A stretch of DNA of 35,272 nucleotides, taken from NCBI GenBank assembly GCA_017396825.1, contig JAFQKR010000018.1, positions 1-35,272 of the forward strand, in the 5' to 3' direction. Position numbers and translations under genes: made by a program. Position 1 is the first letter of the stretch. Each line of letters opens with the position of its first letter. Positions 2,329-11,203 of this stretch are shown here, one piece after another. This stretch comes from Clostridia bacterium (GTDB lineage: Bacteria; Bacillota; Clostridia; Oscillospirales; CAG-382). Below the pieces are notes generated by a model. That model had not been told where the DNA came from. It worked only from the letters and a program-made list of their open reading frames with translations, and made no database searches.

Positions 2329-3252
2329 ATGAAAAGAATCACAGCTATTCTCCTCGCTATGCTGATGGTTTCCTTCTGCTTCGCTACTACCGTTATGGCA
2401 GATGAGACCACCGAAGATGCTACTGCTGATATCACTGCTGATATCACTGCTGACGTTACTTCTGACGATGCTACTTCCGAAGATTCTACTTCTGAAGATG
2501 CTACTTCCGAAGATGAACTTCCTTTTGAAGTTATCAATGTTGCTGCAGGCAAGACCTACACCATCACTTCTGATGCAGAAGACGGCGCTCCTACCTTTAA
2601 CGGCGCTCTTGACGACGGTTTTGGCTTAGGCGAATCCATGGGTCTCCTCACCGACGGCGTTGTTCGTGACGTTGAAGAGCTCACCTCTGCAGGCGCTGGC
2701 GTTATGGATAAGTCCGTAGAACTCGCAGGCACCAACAGAACCCACTTCGTTACCATCGATCTCGGTTCCGTTCAGGACATCGGTATCGTTTCTCTCGGTA
2801 CCGTTCGTCGCGGTAACAACAGATACACCAACCTCGTTTCCGTTGAAGCTCTCATCGGCGGCGTTTGGACCAAGATCAACTACGAAGAAATCGCAGTTGC
2901 TATCGAAGGTGCTGGCCAGTACGGCAGCGAAACCATCGAAGCTTACGATCAGTTCTTTGATGTATACGCAGTTTTCGAAGACCTCGTAGACACCACTTCC
3001 ATCAGAGTTGCTATCGACACTGAAGACAAGACCGGTGCTATCTCCCACTACGGCCCCAGAGGCTACATCGCTCAGCTCGATGAAATCTCTGTTTACTCCA
3101 TCATCGGTCTCGAAGACGAGTCCGGCGATAACGGCACTGACGCTCCCACTGTTCCTTCTACTCCTTCCGCAGGCGACCTCGGTCTCGGCGTATTCGCAGT
3201 ACTTGCAGTTGTTTCTCTTGCAGGTGTTGTAGTTGCTAAGAAGGTTAAGTAA
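2329..3252 (+). CDS. Secreted, membrane-anchored discoidin-like (F5/8 type C) surface protein
   Basis: Product of 307 aa. Signal peptide at residues 1-25 (MKR, hydrophobic core, TTVMA|DE). An acidic low-complexity linker follows (about 25-65: repeats of ADIT and TSED). A single beta-rich domain spans about 67-265; its opening NVAAGKTYTITSDAE, the later LLTDG and the VTIDLGSVQDIGIVSL segment are typical of F5/8 type C/CBM32-like galactose-binding folds. A Pro/Thr/Ser hinge precedes a C-terminal membrane helix ending in AKKVK, so the protein is probably held on the outer face of the membrane. No catalytic domain is seen; it may bind glycan. Codon choice differs from neighbours (GAA over GAG, GCT/CTC/ACC preferred), as in very highly expressed genes. 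AAAGG lies 11 nt before ATG 2329. Own promoter and terminator make it monocistronic. Confidence 0.8.
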   Translation: MKRITAILLAMLMVSFCFATTVMADETTEDATADITADITADVTSDDATSEDSTSEDATSEDELPFEVINVAAGKTYTITSDAEDGAPTFNGALDDGFGLGESMGLLTDGVVRDVEELTSAGAGVMDKSVELAGTNRTHFVTIDLGSVQDIGIVSLGTVRRGNNRYTNLVSVEALIGGVWTKINYEEIAVAIEGAGQYGSETIEAYDQFFDVYAVFEDLVDTTSIRVAIDTEDKTGAISHYGPRGYIAQLDEISVYSIIGLEDESGDNGTDAPTVPSTPSAGDLGLGVFAVLAVVSLAGVVVAKKVK

Positions 3253-3527: not shown

Positions 3528-3563
3528 AAAAAACAAGAAAAGCCCTGCAAGTGCAAGGCTTTT
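3528..3563 (-). terminator. Terminator of the polyphosphate-polymerase operon
   Basis: Minus-strand hairpin with arms at 3538-3549 and 3552-3563 (AAAAGCC / GGCTTTT plus TGCA / TGCA with one C-A mismatch), followed 4 nt later by a run of six T on the minus strand (3528-3533). It lies 12 bp beyond the stop of the beta-helix lipoprotein. Confidence 0.7.
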
Positions 3564-3574
3564 GCTTTTTGTTA

Positions 3575-5560
3575 TTATCTGGGAGGACGCGCGCCACCGC
3601 CCATTCCGCCGCCAGAACCATAAATGGCGGTGGTCATATTTATAGTGGCAAGAGTCGTACCGCCGGTTTTAGTAGTGTTTTGGGCAAAGCCGTTAGAGTC
3701 TACCCCTGAAACGTTTGCTCCTGCAACAAGTGTATAGGTATTACCGCTTTGAATACCGGGTGCTGTAACTATCGCACACTGATAGGATTTTTTACTTGTG
3801 AAGGACACTATAACCTTCCCTGTGCTGTCACAAACCGCAAAGGAGGTACCTGCACTTTGGGTAGAAAAGGTGGATAGAATCGAGCCTTGGTTTTGTGCAG
3901 TGGAGAAGTTTTGCGCCATAGAGGACGTACCAAGTGCCACAAGCACGCCGCCCGTAACGGTAGCACTGCCGTCAAAGTCGAATATACCGTTGCCTCCGCC
4001 TGTAGGACCGCTTACAAGAGTAACGCCTCCGCTGACGGTTATCTTGCCATTGGAATCGATGCCGTCGCCGCCTGAATTAACCAGCAGATACCCACCGGAA
4101 ATGATTATCTCAGCTGTGGTAGCGCTGAATCCCTCAGAGCCGCCTACGGCGTTAAGTGCATCATCCGAGGAAACCACAGAGATGGTACCGCCGGATATAA
4201 GTATACGTGCCGCCTCGATGCCCTCGTAACTTTTCGTGATGTTCATTGTACCGCCGGATATCGCCAAGTCGGTGCTGGCGTGGACGGCGTCGTCGCCGCT
4301 GGCTAGTGTAAGATTACCACCGGTTATATTAACCGTGTTGTTGGAGTGGAGACAGTCGTCACGGCTGTCAAGGCTGTAGGTTCCGCCGGATATAAGTATA
4401 TCAGAGCCCGCCTTCATAGCCTTATAGGACTGAGTGGCGTTGTTTAGCATTGTTCCGCTGCCACCGCCTGCTTTTACGGTAATAGTGGTATTATTGGATT
4501 TTATAATCGTTTCCGCTTGTATGCCGTCAAAGCCCGCAGTGATGTTAACGGTGCCGCCCTCGAAATAGATATAACCACGGGTGGTGTCCTCAGTATTGTC
4601 GGAAACAATACCGTTACTTCCTGCGTTTATCTTAACAGAACCGCCCGTGACCTTTACACAATCCTTGCCGCCGAGAGCTGTGGATTTGGAGGTAACGTCA
4701 AGAGTGCATCCCGCAACGATAAGATTATCCTTGGAAACCACGCCGTGCTTGTAGTTACCCTTAACGGTAAGCTTACCCGTGCCGTTTATAGTAAGGTCGC
4801 CAAGGCTGAACACGGCGCCGTCAACGGTGGTAGTGCCGTCGGTAAACACGTACGAGGTGCCGTCTGCAAGACTGTTTACAGTACCCACCTTAGCGGTGAT
4901 AGTAACCTTATCGGCTTCCTTAACGTAGATGGCAGGGCCTTTGCTGTTGTTTATCAACACGTTGTCAAGGACAAGCTGAACCTCTTCCTTTACGCCTACC
5001 TCTACTATAACCTTTCTGTCTGTAAATCCACCCGTAAGCACGTGTGTACCGGCGGTGGTAATGTATATATCACCCGTAGGCGCGGGGGTTGGCGCAACAG
5101 AACTGTCCTCAGCCTTGGAGCTTGTATCTTCGGGCTTAGAACTTACGTCCTCAGCCTTGGAGCTTGTATCCTCGGGCTTAGAACTTGTGTCCTCAGCCTT
5201 GGAGCTTGTATCCTCGGGCCTTGAACTTGGTTCATCGAGAGCGCTGCTGTCATCGGGGACAGTAGTGCTGTCACCTGCCATGGAAGAATCGTCAACAGAA
5301 GCATTTTCGGAAGTATCATCAGACCCCTCCGAGGAAGATGGCTCACTGCTATCGTTCGGAATAACCACAGGGTCACCCTGAATAACACTTACTACGTCGG
5401 ACTCGTCATAACTACCGTCAACGTCGTTTTTATCAAAGGAAAAGTCCATCCCCTGAGTAGGCGCAGTGGAGGGGAGGTCGGAACTTGCATCTCCGCAAGC
5501 CGTAAAAAACGCGGTAAGCACAAATATTAAGGTCAATACTAAAGCGATGGATTTTCTCAC
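3575..5560 (-). CDS. Beta-helix carbohydrate-binding-domain (DUF4353-type) surface lipoprotein
   Basis: Product of 661 aa. Lipoprotein signal with Cys22 (FFTACGD), then a long Ser/Asp/Glu/Pro linker (about 25-160) containing a seven-residue repeat SSKxEDT. The rest (about 165-650) is many short repeats such as ISGGT, INGTG and ITGGNLTL, with alternating strands of a right-handed parallel beta-helix as in the DUF4353 'carbohydrate-binding domain' family. The tail is Gly-rich (GSGGGMGGGARPPR). It is expected to sit on the cell surface; ligand or catalytic activity is unknown. GTG start at 5558-5560 overlaps the upstream TGA (GTGA) and has AAGGAG at 10 nt, so it is translationally coupled to the DUF4956 gene. 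Last gene of the operon before the terminator at 3528-3563. Confidence 0.82.
   Translation of the reverse strand: MRKSIALVLTLIFVLTAFFTACGDASSDLPSTAPTQGMDFSFDKNDVDGSYDESDVVSVIQGDPVVIPNDSSEPSSSEGSDDTSENASVDDSSMAGDSTTVPDDSSALDEPSSRPEDTSSKAEDTSSKPEDTSSKAEDVSSKPEDTSSKAEDSSVAPTPAPTGDIYITTAGTHVLTGGFTDRKVIVEVGVKEEVQLVLDNVLINNSKGPAIYVKEADKVTITAKVGTVNSLADGTSYVFTDGTTTVDGAVFSLGDLTINGTGKLTVKGNYKHGVVSKDNLIVAGCTLDVTSKSTALGGKDCVKVTGGSVKINAGSNGIVSDNTEDTTRGYIYFEGGTVNITAGFDGIQAETIIKSNNTTITVKAGGGSGTMLNNATQSYKAMKAGSDILISGGTYSLDSRDDCLHSNNTVNITGGNLTLASGDDAVHASTDLAISGGTMNITKSYEGIEAARILISGGTISVVSSDDALNAVGGSEGFSATTAEIIISGGYLLVNSGGDGIDSNGKITVSGGVTLVSGPTGGGNGIFDFDGSATVTGGVLVALGTSSMAQNFSTAQNQGSILSTFSTQSAGTSFAVCDSTGKVIVSFTSKKSYQCAIVTAPGIQSGNTYTLVAGANVSGVDSNGFAQNTTKTGGTTLATINMTTAIYGSGGGMGGGARPPR
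5106..5231. repeat. 42-bp tandem repeat, three units, inside the lipoprotein linker
   Basis: Units start at 5106, 5148 and 5190 with few differences. Each encodes two heptapeptides (SSKPEDT, SSKAEDx). The period is a multiple of three, so unit gain or loss keeps the frame and changes only the length of the surface-exposed stalk. Confidence 0.85.
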
Positions 5561-6228
5561 AGCTCGTCAACTCCTTCTACACACTCGGAAACGGCAATCT
5601 CAAGGTTACCGTTACGGCAACGAAGCTTATCAATAAACTCCTGCAGTTTGGATTTATCTTTAAGCTCTATTCTGTAAAACAGCTTGTAAAGACTGCCCAT
5701 GTTGCTGGTCTTAATTCTTACAAGGCTGTGGCTTTTTGTGTATTCATCAAAAAGGTCGTTAAACGCATCGGCAAAACGAAGCGCCTCGGGAACGAAAACG
5801 GTAAGCTCCATGCTCCTCTGGTCACGCATGGGAATAAGAGAGAGAACCAACATGACCCCGGCAACAACAGCGGTAAACACCAACGCCAAAACAGCGTAGC
5901 CAACGGCACAGGCAAGGCCTGACGTCATTACAAGAAAGATTGCCGCTATTTCCTTTGCCTTACCTGCAACGGAACGGAAGCGAACCAAGGAGAAAGCGCC
6001 CATTACGGCTACGCCTGTACCTACGTTACCGTTAACCATCACTATAACCGTATGTACTATCATGGGAAGCAAAACAAGTGAAACTATGAAGCTTTTTGAA
6101 CTGCGAGACTTTATAGCAGCGGCAACTGCCGTAATAATACCGCAGCCAAGGGCAGCAGCCAAGCATAAAAAGTATTCCTTCGCAGTAAGGGTTGAACTTT
6201 TTAAAAGAGTTTCAAAAATTGCAGACAT
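5557..6228 (-). CDS. DUF4956 family membrane protein
   Basis: Product of 223 aa with about four to five membrane segments in residues 15-135, including the family-typical GAFSLVRFRS stretch between segments, followed by a soluble C-terminal domain of about 85 aa that resembles a small alpha/beta (ferredoxin-like) fold. Family function is not established, but DUF4956 genes commonly sit beside VTC-domain polyphosphate polymerase genes and CotH or surface-protein genes, as here. It may be the membrane partner of the soluble polymerase (inference). AGGAG lies 9 nt before ATG 6228. It is 25 bp downstream of the polymerase gene and overlaps the lipoprotein start by 3 bp. Confidence 0.85.
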   Translation of the reverse strand: MSAIFETLLKSSTLTAKEYFLCLAAALGCGIITAVAAAIKSRSSKSFIVSLVLLPMIVHTVIVMVNGNVGTGVAVMGAFSLVRFRSVAGKAKEIAAIFLVMTSGLACAVGYAVLALVFTAVVAGVMLVLSLIPMRDQRSMELTVFVPEALRFADAFNDLFDEYTKSHSLVRIKTSNMGSLYKLFYRIELKDKSKLQEFIDKLRCRNGNLEIAVSECVEGVDEL

Positions 6229-6253
6229 ATAGTTTTTCTCCTTTATATACTAC

Positions 6254-6964
6254 TTAGTTTGCCACTTTAATTTTGTTTTTCATTATTACGGCGTAAGCGT
6301 TGCCGCATTTTGAGAAGGACGAGGGGAGTATTTTGCATTTACCGAGGGCCGCCGACAGCCACAATGGCATTGCACCATCGGTCTTTATCTCCAGTATCAG
6401 CCTATCATCGGGCAAAAGCATCTCTCCGTGGTTACCCTTTTCCAAAAACAGATCCTCATTTCGGTATCTTATTCCGCTGTCAAAGGTCAGTCGAACGTTG
6501 GGCAAGCCCTTTACGTAAAACGCCTCTCTTTCGTAGGCTATCAATATGGAAGGCTTTGGCTGTCCGTAAAACCTCATTGCGTAGTCTATCTCCGACATTA
6601 TCTGTGATTTTATGGGGCTTTCCCCGCCGTCTATGTACGCCTTTGCTTCGTCAAGAGTCATGGAAACACGGCGTTTATATACTACGCCCTGAAATTTTTT
6701 CTTTATCTCCAAAAAAACCTTGGTGTCTCCGTTAGGTACGCCGTAGCTGCGAAGCCTTAGTTTTTCCTTATAGCACTTTGCTTCGATAGAGTTACGTATA
6801 AGAAGATGAGTGGGCGTATCAAGATAAAGACTGCAGACGGTGCTTTTCCCATACTCATCGGGCACAAGCTTATCCTCTATCATGGTTAAAAGTTTTTCCT
6901 TTTGGGCTGTGCTTACAGGGTACTTTTTTTCCAGCCTTTTAAAAATAAAGGTGTCCTTTGCCAC
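6254..6964 (-). CDS. VTC-domain polyphosphate polymerase-like protein (CYTH/TTM fold)
   Basis: Product of 236 aa, matching a stand-alone VTC domain (the tunnel-fold domain of yeast Vtc4, which makes polyphosphate from ATP). Visible conserved charged residues: RLEKKYPV near the N-terminus, YKEKLRLRSYG (the R-x-R pair), VFLEIKKKFQGVVYKRR (E-x-K pair), IAYEREAFY (Arg), and LILEIKTDGAMPLWL near the C-terminus (metal-binding Glu). All candidate tunnel residues appear intact. No membrane segment, so it is cytoplasmic and would need DUF4956 as membrane anchor or channel (inference). GTG start at 6962-6964 with GGAGG at 8 nt. First gene of the operon; promoter -10 at 6999-7004. Confidence 0.85.
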   Translation of the reverse strand: MAKDTFIFKRLEKKYPVSTAQKEKLLTMIEDKLVPDEYGKSTVCSLYLDTPTHLLIRNSIEAKCYKEKLRLRSYGVPNGDTKVFLEIKKKFQGVVYKRRVSMTLDEAKAYIDGGESPIKSQIMSEIDYAMRFYGQPKPSILIAYEREAFYVKGLPNVRLTFDSGIRYRNEDLFLEKGNHGEMLLPDDRLILEIKTDGAMPLWLSAALGKCKILPSSFSKCGNAYAVIMKNKIKVAN

Positions 6965-6998
6965 GGATACGCGCCTCCTTCCTTAATCGTTCGTAAGA

Positions 6999-7007
6999 AT
7001 TATAGCA
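6999..7007 (-). promoter_or_regulatory. Extended -10 promoter of the polyphosphate-polymerase operon
   Basis: On the minus strand TGC followed by perfect TATAAT (6999-7004). No good -35 is found at 16-18 nt, so activity may rest on the extended -10 or on an activator. It lies just downstream of the terminator of the previous operon. Confidence 0.5.
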
Positions 7008-7047
7008 CCCTAACATTAACAAAAGATAAAAGAATAAAAAAATTTTA

Positions 7048-7087
7048 AAAACGGCTGTTAAAGCGTTTATGCCTTAACAACCGTTTT
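7048..7087 (-). terminator. Terminator of the seven-gene envelope operon
   Basis: Arms AAAACGGCTGTTAA (7048-7061) and TTAACAACCGTTTT (7074-7087), 14 bp with one C-A mismatch. On the minus strand the stem is followed by AAAATTTTTTT-type sequence. It starts 3 bp after the stop codon of the glycosyltransferase gene. Confidence 0.8.
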
Positions 7088-7090
7088 TGC

Positions 7091-9142
7091 TCAATAGGAA
7101 AGGAGATAAAACACGCCGGAGGAAAGGGAAAACAACACCGTAAGAGCAAGAGTAGTAGTCTTGATCACACGTTTTCCTTCTGTGTTGAGATAGATTCCCG
7201 TAAATACTGCACCGATAAGAAGGGTAGGCACGATATAGCGAAAATCCATAGTGCAAGTATGTGGGTATCCGAAGCAGAACAAAATATAGCTACCCAAAAG
7301 AACAAGATAATAAACCGCCATAAAGCGTATCGGCACCTTATACTTACCGTCAGCAGATATGGTGCATTTAATAATAGCGTAAAGGCTTATCCCAATAAGA
7401 ACAATTGCAGAAAACACCATAACATAAGCCAAAAGGTTTTGAAAACCGCCAACATTGGTTTTCATAAAGTACTCGCCAAAAAGGGAACTTTTTACTATAT
7501 AGGGCCCTATTCCGTAGTCAAAAAAGCCACTGCTATCTCCGGTTACAAATCCGCCGTCTACCGTGGTACCGCCCACGTTGGGGTACATATTGGAAAAAGA
7601 CAGGCTTCCTATCCCCGTAAGACGTTCAAATATAGAATACTCACCCAAGTACTGAACATTGTTAACGCTTAAAGCAGGCACGTAGCCCAAGGGCATACCG
7701 TACAGCACGTAACAACGTATGGGCCACCAAAGCCCCATGGGAAAGCACACCGCGCCAAAGGCAAGAAAACGTTTCCAAAGAGACTTTAGGTTTTCAAAGA
7801 ATCCACCGGTCTTGGTATCAAAAAGCTTTGCCAGCATTACGTATGCAGTGCCAACCGCTACCATGGCACCGGATAGTTTTGTCATCATGGCACCACCTAT
7901 GGAAACGGCAAGAAGCAGGGTATTTTTGTAACTCGGAGTCTTGTACCAACGCACGGTATACAGGATGGCAAGAAAAATAAATAACGTGGTAAGCGGGTCG
8001 TTATTGACGCTGCCTGCAAAAATATAAAAGGTGGGATGAAAGGCTATCACGGCAAACGCGGTGCAAAGAGCCACGCCCTTCAGCTTAAACTCACAAAACA
8101 GCTTATACGCCACGGTCATCATGGCCGCAGAGCAGAACATGGTAAAATACTGAATATTTTCGTAAGCGGCGTAAAGTTCTATACCGCAAAGGGTCTGTGC
8201 CTTCATCCAAAGGGCGGCAATAAAATGATACAGAGGCGGATGGTAATACTGAGACAGCCCTGCATTGTAAACGTTTTCCGTCGGCAACGACCAATTATTG
8301 TAGATATGCATTATATACGTGTTATGACGGGGATACTCTGGGGTAAAAACAGAGAAAACGTCATGCTGGTTACTTGGCAAAGCCACGTCAAAAACGTATC
8401 CAAGGCGCATTACAAGGCCCAATCCGAACATCAAGGCGATTATAGATGTTACTCTATCCCTGCCTCTGATAAGTGCAACAAGGCAACCGCCCACGCAAAG
8501 AAGCACACCTGCGGAGAAAACACCGCCTGCCGCTTCTGCCGCCTCCGAATATACCATAGGCACGGTAACTGCGGTCAACGCCATTACTGCTGTTGCCACA
8601 CATCTCCTTATAAGAGATATCTCCGTATCTGACAGGATGGTAAGAGCAAACACCAAGGCTCCTATAACGCATATCAAAATACCAAACCCAAAGGCCAGAC
8701 ACAAAGCGAGGACCGCAACAGCACAAAGAGCAGTAGAAAGGAACCGCTTTTTTATATAAAAATAAAGGCAAAGAGCAATGGCCGCAACCCCCATAAGGAG
8801 CATACAAAGGTCGAACCAAATTTCACTGAGCAAAAGCAAGCCCCTCCAGCATAGAAACGCCGCAGCAAAGCCGCCGCCGATATAAAGGGCTGTTTTCGCC
8901 TTACCCTCGCTGCTCTCCCTTAAAAAGCCGATAAACACCGAAAGAGTCAGCGCGGTGAGAACAACGGCAGGAAGCACCGAAACAAAGCCGAACTGACCGT
9001 TGATCCCCGCCATGGTATAGCGGCTTGCCTGATGCTTCTGCTCAAAACATAGGCAAAGTAAGCAAGCAAGTGCCGTGACAACGAGGGGATATTTTGAAAT
9101 ACGGGAAGACAGCGTAAGGCTGTCCTTATAATCTTGCTTCAC
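7091..9142 (-). CDS. GT-C (GT39/ArnT/PMT-like) polyprenyl-phosphate-sugar glycosyltransferase
   Basis: Polytopic protein of 683 aa with roughly 12-14 membrane helices. GT-C features: after the first block of helices, a loop with SNQHDVF and later GLSQYYHPPLYHFIAALW (HPPLYH signature), then FAGSVNNDPLTTLF (NNDP motif), both typical of PMT/ArnT-like enzymes that transfer a sugar from a polyprenyl-phosphate donor on the outer membrane face. An acidic residue in the first loop, expected for catalysis, may be the QHD aspartate (inference). Acceptor unknown: protein, teichoic acid or other glycan. GTG start at 9140-9142 is 2 bp after the stop of the flavoenzyme gene; the Shine-Dalgarno is weak (AAGTGG), suggesting coupling. 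Last gene of the operon. Confidence 0.82.
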   Translation of the reverse strand: MKQDYKDSLTLSSRISKYPLVVTALACLLCLCFEQKHQASRYTMAGINGQFGFVSVLPAVVLTALTLSVFIGFLRESSEGKAKTALYIGGGFAAAFLCWRGLLLLSEIWFDLCMLLMGVAAIALCLYFYIKKRFLSTALCAVAVLALCLAFGFGILICVIGALVFALTILSDTEISLIRRCVATAVMALTAVTVPMVYSEAAEAAGGVFSAGVLLCVGGCLVALIRGRDRVTSIIALMFGLGLVMRLGYVFDVALPSNQHDVFSVFTPEYPRHNTYIMHIYNNWSLPTENVYNAGLSQYYHPPLYHFIAALWMKAQTLCGIELYAAYENIQYFTMFCSAAMMTVAYKLFCEFKLKGVALCTAFAVIAFHPTFYIFAGSVNNDPLTTLFIFLAILYTVRWYKTPSYKNTLLLAVSIGGAMMTKLSGAMVAVGTAYVMLAKLFDTKTGGFFENLKSLWKRFLAFGAVCFPMGLWWPIRCYVLYGMPLGYVPALSVNNVQYLGEYSIFERLTGIGSLSFSNMYPNVGGTTVDGGFVTGDSSGFFDYGIGPYIVKSSLFGEYFMKTNVGGFQNLLAYVMVFSAIVLIGISLYAIIKCTISADGKYKVPIRFMAVYYLVLLGSYILFCFGYPHTCTMDFRYIVPTLLIGAVFTGIYLNTEGKRVIKTTTLALTVLFSLSSGVFYLLSY

Positions 9143-9144
9143 GA

Positions 9145-10716
9145 TTAGTCACCACTTTTATCTTCGGTAGTCTCATGATACTCTTTTTCGGTATTTACAT
9201 TCCACACGGCGCTTTTATCGTTGCTGCCTGAGGCGATAGCGTCCACCGCCTCCATAGCCGTAAGCATGGAGTGGTCCATGTTGTTGTATCTGTGCTGGCC
9301 GTTTCTGCCTATGCAAAACAGATTTTCAAAGCCGTCCAAGAACTGTTTAACCTCATCAAAGCGGCTGTAAACGCCGAAATACGCAGGATAAGCCTTCTTA
9401 ACACGGATACGAACTGCGTCTCTTACGTCGTTTTTATCTATTATATCTATCTTTTGAAGTTCGTCTATAGCAAAGGAAATAAAGTCCTCGTCGGACATAT
9501 TCCACATTTCGTCTCCCTCGTTGCAAAAGTACTCAAGCCCCATCCAAATTTTAGAGGGGTCTGCCACCATGTAGGGGGACCAGTTGTTGAATATCTGAAG
9601 TCTGCCTATCTTAACGTCCCTCTCCTGTATGTATATCCAACAGTCGGGAACTATATTGTTCACGGTCTTCATCTTGGTCTTGTTGGTGATAAGAAGTTTG
9701 TCCACAAGAAGCCCCACCGTAATAAAATCACGGTAAGGAAGGCCCGATGCCACCTCGCGCACGTTGTCGGGAGCGTTTTCAAAGCCAGCGATCAGATCCT
9801 TAACGGGCATAGAAGACAAGGCGTAATCGCAATCAAGCACGCTATCCTTACCCTCGCGGGTTACCTTTACGCCCACTACACGGTTACCCTCGGTAACCAC
9901 GCCCGTAGCCGTTGTTTCGGTAAGTATCAGACCTCCAAGCTTTGCAATCTCGTCCGCAAGGGTCTCCCAAAGCTGACCCGGACCCTTTTTGGGGTAAACA
10001 AACTGCTCTATAAGAGAGGTTTCCACATTCTTGCCGTCACCACCCGTAAAGGGCTTTTTTATCATAGACCACACAGCCTTGGTAAGGGAAAGGCCCTTAA
10101 CGCGCTGTGCGCCCCAATCGGCAGAGATATTTTCCGGATTAACGCCCCAAAGCTTTGTGGTGTAGTCCTCGAAGAACATCTCATAAAGAGGCTTACCAAA
10201 ACGGTTTATATAAAAGTTTTTAAGGTTGTCCTCGGGAAGCTTGAACATTACGCTCTTTATATAACCAAAGCCGCTTTTTACGGTACGGCTAAAGCCCATA
10301 TTTTTGAAGGTCTCCCCCTTCATGCTGATGGGATAATCAAAAAACTTACGCAAGAAGAATATACGGGACACGCGTGTACGCACAAGCATTACCCTATCCT
10401 CCTTATCGGGGTCGGGACCACCCTCGGCAAGGGGCTTTTCGTTCCCGGTTATCTTGTCGTCGGAGGAGGGTGCGCCCTGAGTGGGCATAAGCATGCTCCA
10501 AAAATCGGTAACACGCTTATCCTTGGAGAAAAAACGGTGGCCGCCAAGGTCCATACGGTTACCCTTTACCTGAGCCGTACGGGAAATACCGCCTATAAAG
10601 GGGCTTTCCTCTATGATTATTGGCAATATATCGGTCTTAGTCAAAAGCTGATACGCGGCGGTAAGCCCCGCGGGGCCGGCGCCTATTATAACTGCATGCT
10701 GTCTTTTTCCTGACAT
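9145..10716 (-). CDS. FAD-dependent oxidoreductase, UDP-galactopyranose-mutase/amine-oxidase-like
   Basis: Soluble flavoenzyme of 523 aa. FAD Rossmann motif [16 protein letters not shown] at about 8-23, followed by the GGISRTAQ and [12 protein letters not shown] segments found in UDP-galactopyranose-mutase-like and protoporphyrinogen-oxidase-like proteins; the C-terminus has [16 protein letters not shown], where the second FAD-contact region usually lies. Such proteins recur beside GtrA and GT-C genes in cell-envelope clusters, where they are thought to alter a nucleotide- or lipid-linked sugar; the reaction here is not known. ATG 10714-10716 is preceded by AAGGAGAAATAAA. It is 1 bp from the gtrA-type gene upstream and 2 bp from the glycosyltransferase downstream. 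Family is clear, substrate is not. Confidence 0.8.
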
Positions 10717-10717
10717 T

Positions 10718-11185
10718 TTATTTCTCCTTAAAAACGAAAATCTTTCTTCCCACGTAATTCCAGATAAGCACTATACCTGCAACCACTATCTTTACGGCGT
10801 AAACACCAAGGCCGCCTATGGCACTGTCAAGTTCCTTGCCCATGGTGCTTGTCAACAGCTTTGCCTCGCCAAGCCATTGCAAAAGCTCCGTAAGACCAAG
10901 TCCTATTACACCGATCACGGCAAACACAAGCACCGCCTTTAAGTTTCTGCCCTGCTCTTGTTGCTTTTTGGTGCGGAAAACCATCAACATAGAAAGCACG
11001 TAGTTTACCGCAAGCCCTGCAATAAAGCCTGCGGCGGTGGATACCGTTATCGCCGCCACTCCGTTTCCGCCGCCAAACACAAACTCACGGAACAAAGCAA
11101 AAACGCCGAAATCAATGACAAAGGCTATACCGCCCACCACGGCGTAACGTAGAAACTCTGCTATCAAGGCTTTTTTGTTATCCAC
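10718..11185 (-). CDS. GtrA-family membrane protein
   Basis: GtrA-fold protein (about 155 aa) with four membrane helices: [21 protein letters not shown], then [19 protein letters not shown], then [19 protein letters not shown], and a last helix ending [14 protein letters not shown], the family's C-terminal signature. GtrA proteins are implicated in moving polyprenyl-phosphate-linked sugars across the membrane. Start: an in-frame ATG at 11203 has no Shine-Dalgarno, while GTG 11183-11185 has AAGGAAGG at 7 nt and is preferred; the longer form would add six residues. It lies between the lipoprotein gene and the mutase-like gene, with the GT-C enzyme two genes downstream, which fits a donor-supply role (inference). 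Confidence 0.88.
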
Positions 11186-11203
11186 GGTTTTTCCTTCCTT
11201 CAT

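Follow-up and report, generated by a model that had tools for sequence, protein, structure and literature searches.

A Vtc4-like polymerase domain paired with the membrane protein DUF4956 and an exchangeable surface module in gut Clostridia

In gut Clostridia, a Vtc4-like VTC-domain protein and the membrane protein DUF4956 form an obligate pair, an association far beyond chance. In the stretch of DNA analysed here (the window; 35,272 nucleotides, contig JAFQKR010000018.1 of a Clostridia bacterium), ORF calls and Pfam matches place this pair in a three-gene operon on the minus strand, in which VTC is followed by DUF4956 and then by a beta-helix lipoprotein of the Cthe_2159/DUF4353 family. We tentatively read the unit as a minimal bacterial VTC-like complex, with cytosolic polyphosphate synthesis, export through or with DUF4956 and a surface partner, and would give this reading slightly less than an even chance.

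Results

The operon and its signals comprise the following features.

7047..7088, minus strand: terminator-like hairpin of the upstream gene (hairpin search)
6999..7007, minus strand: candidate extended -10 promoter TGCTATAAT, picked out by eye and absent from the scanner output
6974..6979, minus strand: AGGAGG ribosome-binding site of the VTC gene, 9 nt 5' of the GTG (read from the sequence)
6254..6964, minus strand: VTC-domain protein, predicted polyphosphate polymerase (TTM/CYTH fold), 236 aa, GTG start; PF09359, E 3.4e-38
6229-6253, minus strand: intergenic gap between VTC and DUF4956, 25 bp
5557..6228, minus strand: DUF4956 membrane protein, 223 aa, ATG start; PF16316, E 5.6e-13
5557..5560, minus strand: GTGA, 4 bp in which the DUF4956 stop and the lipoprotein start overlap (read from the sequence)
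3575..5560, minus strand: surface lipoprotein, Cthe_2159/DUF4353 beta-helix, 661 aa, GTG start; PF14262, E 1.5e-88
5104..5229, minus strand: 42-bp tandem repeat, 3.0 copies, coding for the SSK[AP]ED linker (repeat analysis)
3538..3563, minus strand: terminator-like hairpin 3' of the lipoprotein gene (hairpin search)

An earlier note on this DNA had described three coupled genes under one promoter and one terminator. The coupling is borne out by the gap and the overlap, both present in the ORF coordinates and the sequence, and the same -4 overlap recurs in loci L032, L039, L040, L043 and L061. The single promoter stands in part, as the extended -10 element and the AGGAGG are in place but the promoter scanner reported no two-hexamer site upstream of the VTC gene. 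For the single terminator there is the hairpin behind the lipoprotein gene, with terminator-like sites in the region (6) showing no excess over shuffled sequence (mean 6.5); the hairpin of the upstream gene sets that gene apart from the operon. No riboswitch or other RNA element was detected in the window at gathering thresholds.

The AlphaFold2 model of the VTC protein (pLDDT 94.8) aligns with yeast Vtc4 (3g3r) over 218 residues with a Z score of 19.7 and an rmsd of 2.6. Nine VTC-structure entries score between 15.9 and 19.7 and the best non-VTC match 14.2, TTM phosphatases and cyclases, which the model also resembles, lying at 11-14; a VTC profile retrieves Vtc4 at E 2.3e-22. The model thereby assigns the protein to the VTC branch of the TTM tunnel fold. 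K14, R70, R72, K88, K97, R146, R158, E192, S218 and K219 align with K200, R264, R266, K281, K294, R361, R373, E426, S457 and K458 of Vtc4 (yeast numbering as in full-length chain 8i6v and related chains), which we take to be the catalytic set of the yeast enzyme. Nine of these ten are invariant among 88 VTC sequences, and S218 is conserved in at least 90% of them. The motifs that the earlier note had singled out, R-x-R (R70/R72), E-x-K (E12/K14, E86/K88 and E192/K194) and the metal glutamate (E192, counterpart of E426), are all present and invariant in the 88 sequences, and every compared tunnel residue aligns with Vtc4. The N-terminal motif reads R-x-E-x-K versus R-x-T-x-K in Vtc4, placing a glutamate at the T198 position as in ExExK enzymes. 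Neither an SPX domain nor a membrane segment was found, VTC being the sole Pfam family in the 236-residue protein and the model consisting of the tunnel domain alone, in agreement with the earlier description of a VTC protein devoid of a membrane part. By analogy with Vtc4, its product is most likely polyphosphate made from ATP; the yeast VTC complex carrying R264A/R266A/E426N is catalytically impaired (PMC9911596, in part).

DUF4956 is predicted to span the membrane with five helices, as expected of the membrane protein it had been called, followed by a cytosolic ACT-like domain (AlphaFold2, pLDDT 86.3). Invariant are R83 and R85, an R-x-R where helix 3 is predicted to end on the cytosolic side, and an acidic residue at position 93. 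Profile comparison places it, ACT-like domain included, among the MgtC/SapB-type membrane proteins as a divergent member: hhalign matches it to the MgtC profile over 214 columns spanning both the membrane and the ACT-like parts (probability 97.9, P 4.8e-13), and the controls, five unrelated and six reversed or permuted profiles, all gave P >= 0.01. The MgtC family PF02308 matches 38 of 88 DUF4956 proteins at E <= 1 (best 3.6e-5); it is not among the matches of the window protein, and all DUF4956 genes that it matched in the genome scan fell under the curated cut-off. Foldseek returned nothing for the model at E <= 0.001, and a profile search against the PDB nothing under E 0.1, and no known fold came up for the membrane part; VIA-align recovered only the C-terminal ferredoxin/ACT-like domain (Z 8-9, a level common to many unrelated proteins). 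Thus, the MgtC link comes from profiles, not from structure.

How strict is the pairing? VTC occurs in 46 of 299 genomes of the phylum, and the identical 46 carry DUF4956, none having one alone; among the control genomes, the same 3 of 14 match both. In a survey of 149 related genomes, into which all 135 VTC and 128 DUF4956 places were entered, DUF4956 adjoins VTC on the same strand for 125 of the 135 VTC matches, and the DUF4956-positive genomes are a subset of the VTC-positive ones (95 of 98). Both genes are present in all 80 named loci, the best 80 of 541, drawn with a clade I query. Within the family of the window, 52 of 63 genomes match VTC and 49 match DUF4956. The recurring association of VTC, DUF4956 and surface-protein genes that the earlier note had described is thus real, and the three genes do co-occur in the comparative data. 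For the surface partners, the survey of relatives gives lower bounds: at least 116 Cthe_2159 places, the stronger among those listed, and at least 46 of CotH, mainly from VTC-bearing contigs. ORFs in the locus analysis are mechanical calls with uncertain starts.

Bacterial polyphosphate is usually viewed as PPK1/PPK2 chemistry. In the family of the window, PPK1, PPK2 and Ppx/GppA were each found in 0 of 63 genomes, an absence consistent with export. A role of VTC as a replacement for PPK1 was considered and set aside: among the 149 relatives the pair occurs in 14 of 29 PPK1-positive and 81 of 120 PPK1-negative genomes (Fisher p 0.08), a trend confounded by phylogeny, and only the absence from the family is used here. 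PPK2 and Ppx showed no significant relation to the pair in the same relatives (p 0.16 and p 0.46).

The third gene encodes Cthe_2159 or CotH, and the comparison of neighbourhoods that the earlier note had proposed finds that the two replace each other, usually in the same slot. A Cthe_2159 partner is present in 52 of the 80 named loci (best 80 of 541) and in 39 of 100 fetched neighbourhoods; 38 of these 100 have neither in the operon, so that a surface partner is not obligatory. The fetched loci include only 4 of the 30 CotH-upstream loci, and CotH is therefore under-represented in the neighbourhood counts, the gene orders and the tree. This tree leaves out 3 of the 100 loci, and in it L067, where a mis-called frame hides the third gene, was re-labelled by hand from none to Cthe_2159. 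It falls into two deep clades, and the operon without a CotH kinase, correctly reported for the window, is typical of one of them and no oddity of the window genome. In clade II, CotH and Cthe_2159 ectodomains both follow the same membrane anchor of about 34 residues, a pattern reproduced in genomes outside the set on which the anchor model was built; partner labels in these genomes, as in the 80 named loci, come from profiles built on the same fetched loci. This swap of ectodomains suggests that coupling to the VTC-DUF4956 machine goes through the N-terminal anchor and not through the kinase domain. The swap and the MgtC kinship of DUF4956 both go beyond the earlier note. Absolute exclusion of the two partners (0 of 100 fetched loci with both) was overturned by locus L209, which reads CotH-VTC-DUF4956-Cthe_2159; the two strongly tend to exclude each other, though not without exception.

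In the window, the third gene product is the long beta-helix lipoprotein that had been proposed. It has a signal peptide with the lipobox FTAC at Cys22 (pattern match), an acidic linker with SSK[AP]ED repeats and a beta-helix, which scores 297 bits against PF14262 (curated cut-off 25.8) and matches the Cthe_2159 structure 4peu over 230 residues (E 2.9e-31); a lipobox-like motif is present in 27 of 37 homologues, judged by a loose pattern rather than a dedicated predictor. The homologue alignment reveals conserved Asp/Glu positions in the beta-helix. The protein is strongly acidic (pI about 4.3; its domain 4.9), and homologues from the fetched loci have a pI of 4.05-4.65 in 35 of 36 cases (6.11 in the remaining one), which makes direct polyphosphate binding doubtful and unlikely without a cation bridge. 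The linker formally satisfies the definition of the polyphosphate-binding PASK motif, 75% D/E/S/K in 20 residues including lysine (PMC12345225, in part). As a mechanism this was rejected, with such linkers in only 2 of 41 Cthe_2159 and 0 of 25 CotH proteins versus 7 of 819 other proteins of the fetched neighbourhoods; the PASK-like linker is a window-specific curiosity, not conserved in homologues.

Discussion

What might such a unit do? In the reading that we prefer, VTC would sit at the inner face of the membrane and use ATP to build a chain of inorganic phosphate, most likely polyphosphate. Its obligatory membrane partner, DUF4956, would most likely carry the chain outward, and the third gene would add an exchangeable surface module, a Cthe_2159 beta-helix or CotH, acting with the exported product or matrix, probably via Ca2+, as its strong acidity suggests. 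The yeast VTC complex (Vtc1/Vtc3/Vtc4) has in common with the unit a TTM polymerase domain of the Vtc4 kind, identical in its catalytic residues, and an obligatory membrane partner bearing basic residues. In yeast, these line the channel entrance and synthesis is coupled to translocation (PMC9911596, in part), and the invariant R83 and R85 of DUF4956 speak for a VTC-like complex in this respect. The window polymerase differs in having neither SPX nor a transmembrane part of its own, and its membrane partner is of the MgtC/DUF4956 type; where yeast has the vacuole lumen there is a surface protein, and export is what we infer. The earlier suggestion that a chain is made and exported, and that the lipoprotein binds it or is decorated by it, is favoured in part, by the Vtc4-like active site, the obligate membrane pair and the recurring three-gene unit; direct binding in its last step is unlikely without a cation bridge, given the acidic pI.

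Alternatively, VTC could make cytosolic polyphosphate, with DUF4956 as an MgtC-like sensor or regulator that would respond to a metabolite through its ACT-like domain and adjust VTC or a surface pathway encoded nearby; the surface protein would then be a co-regulated output. The full-length MgtC match with its null controls and the ACT-like domain favour such a role, which we hold to be somewhat unlikely, as do the two-component genes that often adjoin (12 of 100 fetched loci have a histidine kinase inside the operon, and 16 of the 80 named loci, best of 541, have one no more than 5.5 kb away on the same strand). To our knowledge, MgtC relatives act in regulation or virulence and not as polymer channels, which also counts against a VTC-like complex. 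In S. intermedius, deletion of the MgtC/ACT membrane protein gene SIR_1592, which we take to be the DUF4956 gene, raises Pel and lowers aggregation, and no phenotype, including any change in aggregation, is reported for deletion of the VTC gene SIR_1593 (PMC12345266); both observations weigh against a VTC-like complex, the former being explained as readily by a regulator as by a channel. However, the strict 1:1 pairing in 46 of 46 genomes and the invariant arginines at a helix end suit a structural subunit, and the family has no Ppx, PPK1 or PPK2 to draw on a cytosolic store.

VTC might also be another tunnel enzyme, a tri-/polyphosphate hydrolase or one that transfers phosphate to the cell envelope, considering the functional diversity of the TTM superfamily, the resemblance to its phosphatases and cyclases and the ExExK-like glutamate; as VTC structures are clearly the best match and every compared polymerase residue is kept, we find this quite improbable. 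For the lipoprotein, the role of an ordinary adhesin or carbohydrate binder riding in the operon, with no biochemical link to the VTC-DUF4956 product, would agree with the binding of cellulose and polygalacturonic acid by Cthe_2159 proteins (PMC6712302, in part), with their nearness to an adhesive-domain cluster (PMC9210967, in part), with the frequency of the family elsewhere in these genomes (nine matched stretches in genome G000) and with the many loci that have no third gene. Yet Cthe_2159 repeatedly comes right after DUF4956 with conserved -4 overlaps, and CotH can take its place behind a conserved anchor; both argue for a link to the pair and make mere co-residence rather doubtful. Compared with Cthe_2159 itself (4peu/4phb), a carbohydrate-binding beta-helix of the same family, the window protein differs in being a lipoprotein, in its long and acidic linker, and in being encoded beside a polymerase and a membrane protein. 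Against the VTC-like complex that we prefer also stand the acidity of the lipoprotein, the R-x-E-x-K motif, the 38 of 100 loci with neither Cthe_2159 nor CotH in the operon, the PPK1 link that is not significant (p 0.08) and the 86.9% completeness of G000.

The three-gene unit points to an unstudied bacterial route for making, and perhaps displaying, phosphate chains. A gut Clostridia family without PPK1, PPK2 and Ppx/GppA mostly retains a Vtc4-like enzyme tied strictly to one membrane protein, and two unknowns, the roles of bacterial VTC and of DUF4956, become one testable machine. In a bolder and distinctly unlikely version, prokaryotes would have in this unit their first counterpart of the VTC complex, polymerising phosphate and extruding it through an MgtC-fold protein in PPK-free gut bacteria, and feeding a surface-display slot whose machine-docked anchor carries interchangeable CotH or Cthe_2159. 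If extrusion and display slot were true, exported polyphosphate could serve secreted CotH kinases as phosphate donor, and conduits for anionic polymers would count among the MgtC-fold proteins. MgtC/SapB proteins share with DUF4956 the co-linear membrane helices and the ACT-like C-terminal domain, but identity is about 10%, the window protein has no Pfam MgtC match, and DUF4956 is always tied to VTC.

Related gene sets are known. C. perfringens NELoc-2 holds two VTC genes that each have a membrane-protein neighbour, as well as CotH and a glycosyltransferase (PMC2879425). VTC, membrane protein and CotH are shared with our loci, L072 and L078 reading VTC-DUF4956-CotH-unknown-HEAT-GT2, whereas the window operon is without CotH, HEAT and GT2. 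In Gram-positive pel clusters, the accessory genes run cotH - poly-P polymerase - DUF4956 - DUF4832 (PMC7112168), and SIR_1591-1594 of S. intermedius are such genes (PMC12345266, in part). No Pel family was found among eight window proteins scanned, nor contiguity with pelDEADAFG at the window, which differs further in having Cthe_2159 in place of CotH and in belonging to a deep separate clade. The same VTC-DUF4956 core nevertheless lies beside a secreted-protein gene in both, and locus L129 has the very order CotH-VTC-DUF4956-DUF4832; the pel-linked cotH/PPP/DUF4956 genes are thus to be treated as a VTC-like unit.

A conserved operon and its setting

The VTC gene, the DUF4956 gene and a gene for a surface protein constitute a real and conserved module, a variant among systems of the VTC and CotH-VTC-DUF4956 type. 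In the window the three genes lie where the earlier note had placed them, on the minus strand, with 25 bp between VTC and DUF4956 and a 4-bp GTGA overlap between DUF4956 and the lipoprotein gene; coordinates and Pfam assignments agree, and an overlap of the same length recurs in five loci from compared genomes (L032, L039, L040, L043, L061).

Features of the operon
7088-7047, minus: terminator-like hairpin closing the gene upstream of the operon (hairpin scan)
7007-6999, minus: candidate extended -10 of the operon (read by eye)
6964-6254, minus: VTC gene (Pfam family confirmed)
6228-5557, minus: DUF4956 gene (Pfam family confirmed)
5560-3575, minus: lipoprotein gene, Cthe_2159 family (Pfam family confirmed)
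3563-3538, minus: terminator-like hairpin 3' of the lipoprotein gene (hairpin scan)

One promoter and one terminator had been proposed for the unit. Terminator-like hairpins stand behind the lipoprotein gene and behind the upstream gene, in a region where such hairpins are no more numerous than in shuffled sequence; the promoter is a candidate, seen by eye and not reported by the promoter scanner. Genes for GtrA, a flavin amine-oxidoreductase-like protein (PRK07208 type) and a PMT_2-type mannosyltransferase closely adjoin upstream (7091-11203, minus), and are likely an envelope glycan operon. Convergent to the operon (2329-3252, plus) is a gene for a secreted protein of 307 residues with acidic T/S-E-D repeats, a C-terminal hydrophobic anchor and no match in Pfam.

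An obligate pair

VTC and DUF4956 are an obligate pair. Among 149 related genomes VTC occurs in 98 and DUF4956 in 95, all of them within the 98, and DUF4956 is adjacent on the same strand at 125 of 135 VTC matches. Six of the ten remaining matches are weak or partial (fewer than 150 of 235 positions), another is a fragment of 181 positions (G080:C23), and three are nearly full-length (G034:C94, G060:C126, G130:C4), the first from a genome with a DUF4956 gene at the beginning of a different contig. When 299 genomes were drawn evenly across the phylum, both genes were found in the same 46, which include the window genome and two of the relatives already counted; the same three of 14 named controls match each gene (Bacteroides ihuae, Corynebacterium glutamicum, Methanosarcina acetivorans), and the pair is present in every one of 80 named loci, the best 80 of 541 drawn with a clade I query. 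The association that the earlier note had called recurring is borne out.

In the excerpts available, cotH-PPP-DUF4956 genes are described as accessory genes of pel clusters (PMC7112168), a related cluster is described in C. perfringens (PMC2879425), and deletions in genes of this type are reported for S. intermedius, whose authors state that the arrangement of their three genes was not found outside the Pel locus (PMC12345266). CotH with the pair is common in our loci, a count that takes in these genes alone. A literature search covering few subscription journals or preprints returned no paper on a VTC-DUF4956-Cthe_2159 unit, obligate VTC-DUF4956 pairing or the anchor exchange described below.

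An exchangeable third gene

A tree of 97 VTC-DUF4956 pairs falls into two deep, fully supported groups. In clade I, which includes the window (57 pairs), Cthe_2159 is present in 34 loci, 23 have neither partner, and CotH does not occur, and clade II (40 pairs) has CotH in 23, Cthe_2159 in four and neither in 13, CotH loci being under-sampled, as only four of the 30 with CotH upstream are included. With loci bearing neither left out, the tree requires at least four switches between the two partners. Among the best 80 of 541 named loci, Cthe_2159 adjoins the pair in 52, including Roseburia inulinivorans DSM 16841 (L169), Mobilisporobacter senegalensis DSM 26537 (L175) and Bittarella massiliensis (L192), and CotH occurs in two. 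One of these (L209, 2950-7800), a run of CotH, VTC, DUF4956 and Cthe_2159, is the sole locus of the 80 with both partners.

The gene that follows DUF4956 in clade II opens with the same membrane anchor of about 34 residues, whichever ectodomain it encodes.

Loci with the shared anchor
CotH ectodomain: L075, L122, L076, L080, L079, L081, L082
Cthe_2159 ectodomain: L062, L059

When the two Cthe_2159 anchors were compared by BLAST with 3,219 ORFs from 180 loci, they found, besides themselves, only CotH proteins in the same slot; ten shuffled queries found nothing. An anchor profile gave 13 matches in 12 of the 299 phylum genomes, none of which had supplied a query. Seven of the 13, among them the six best (E <= 4.6e-4), stand directly behind DUF4956: one Cthe_2159 protein (G393, L212) and six CotH proteins, including one (G289, L214) from the same family. 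The other six are weak and away from VTC. Not every clade II partner carries a clear copy (in L110, L084, L049 and L058 the match is weak or absent), and the clade of the window has a lipobox in its place, a loose pattern of which is found in 27 of 37 homologues.

The enzyme and its membrane partner

The R-x-R, E-x-K and metal Glu residues are kept, as had been claimed. Yeast Vtc4 is detected at E 2.3e-22 with a profile built from 88 VTC sequences. Each of the ten known Vtc4 residues compared has its counterpart in that alignment, and nine of them do not vary in any of the 88. The window protein alone gave E 0.13 against the PDB, below significance. Its predicted model (mean pLDDT 94.8) matches Vtc4 3g3r with Z 19.7 (24% identity, 218 residues); among the matches listed, all VTC entries reach at least 15.9, against 14.2 for the highest-scoring tunnel enzyme of another kind. 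In place of the R-x-T-x-K of Vtc4, the bacterial motif reads R10-x-E12-x-K14. The available part of one study describes R264A/R266A/E426N as a catalytically impaired yeast VTC complex and couples synthesis to translocation through a basic channel (PMC9911596). Polymerase activity of the bacterial protein is probable.

DUF4956 is a membrane protein, as proposed, with five membrane-length helices and then a C-terminal ACT-like domain in the predicted model (mean pLDDT 86.3). All 88 sequences share G77, R83 and R85, and the residue at position 93 is acidic throughout; charge bias would place R83 and R85 at the end of helix 3 that faces the cytosol. The family profile aligns with that of MgtC along 214 columns with a probability of 97.9 (P 4.8e-13; five unrelated and six reversed or permuted profiles all gave P >= 0.01), and 38 of the 88 members have weak Pfam MgtC matches. 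This agrees with the excerpted description of S. intermedius SIR_1592, the neighbour of a VTC gene, as MgtC plus ACT (PMC12345266).

True MgtC genes also occur beside Cthe_2159 genes, one lying 170 bp upstream of a 1070-residue Cthe_2159 protein in the window's own genome (L250, G000:C50, 4005-8110, minus) and two near such a gene in G080 (L251); no MgtC gene adjoins the large Cthe_2159 genes of G001, G004 and G006 (L253-L255) within the fetched stretch.

Export, binding and regulation

In the window's family PPK1, PPK2 and Ppx/GppA are each found in 0 of 63 genomes, 52 of which have a VTC match, and all three are missing from 78 of the 95 pair-bearing genomes. With no known enzyme among these to use a cytosolic store, export is mildly favoured, and is a plausible if tentative reading. 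In two PPK1-bearing genomes VTC and PPK1 are no more than about 5-7 kb apart (G096:C1:1334447-1340584; G098:C4:1482-15885; around L053, L044 and L117), in the second with Ppx also nearby.

Direct polyphosphate binding by the lipoprotein is doubtful and rather unlikely. The protein belongs to the Cthe_2159 family (4peu), reported to bind cellulose and polygalacturonic acid (PMC6712302); its conserved Asp/Glu positions (345, 401, 402, 424, 446, 449, 466, 467, 499, 502, 528) and pI near 4.3 suit cation binding rather than direct binding of a polyanion. A 42-bp tandem repeat (5104-5229) encodes an SSK[AP]ED linker, near the polyphosphate-polymerase-like gene. The linker falls within the formal definition of the PASK polyphosphate-binding motif, which was rejected as a general feature, only two of the 41 homologues from fetched loci having one.

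A histidine kinase (HisKA/HATPase), absent from the window operon, is found inside the operon in 12 of 100 fetched loci; in 16 of the best 80 of 541 named loci it lies no more than 5.5 kb away on the same strand. A response regulator often accompanies it. L066, L065, L069 and L070 carry a single run of Cthe_2159, response regulator, histidine kinase, VTC and DUF4956, suggesting a dedicated two-component system. In Roseburia inulinivorans (L169, 11431-13079) a response regulator and histidine-kinase pieces lie 3' of VTC-DUF4956-Cthe_2159, the kinase in three frames through draft-sequence error or as a broken gene.
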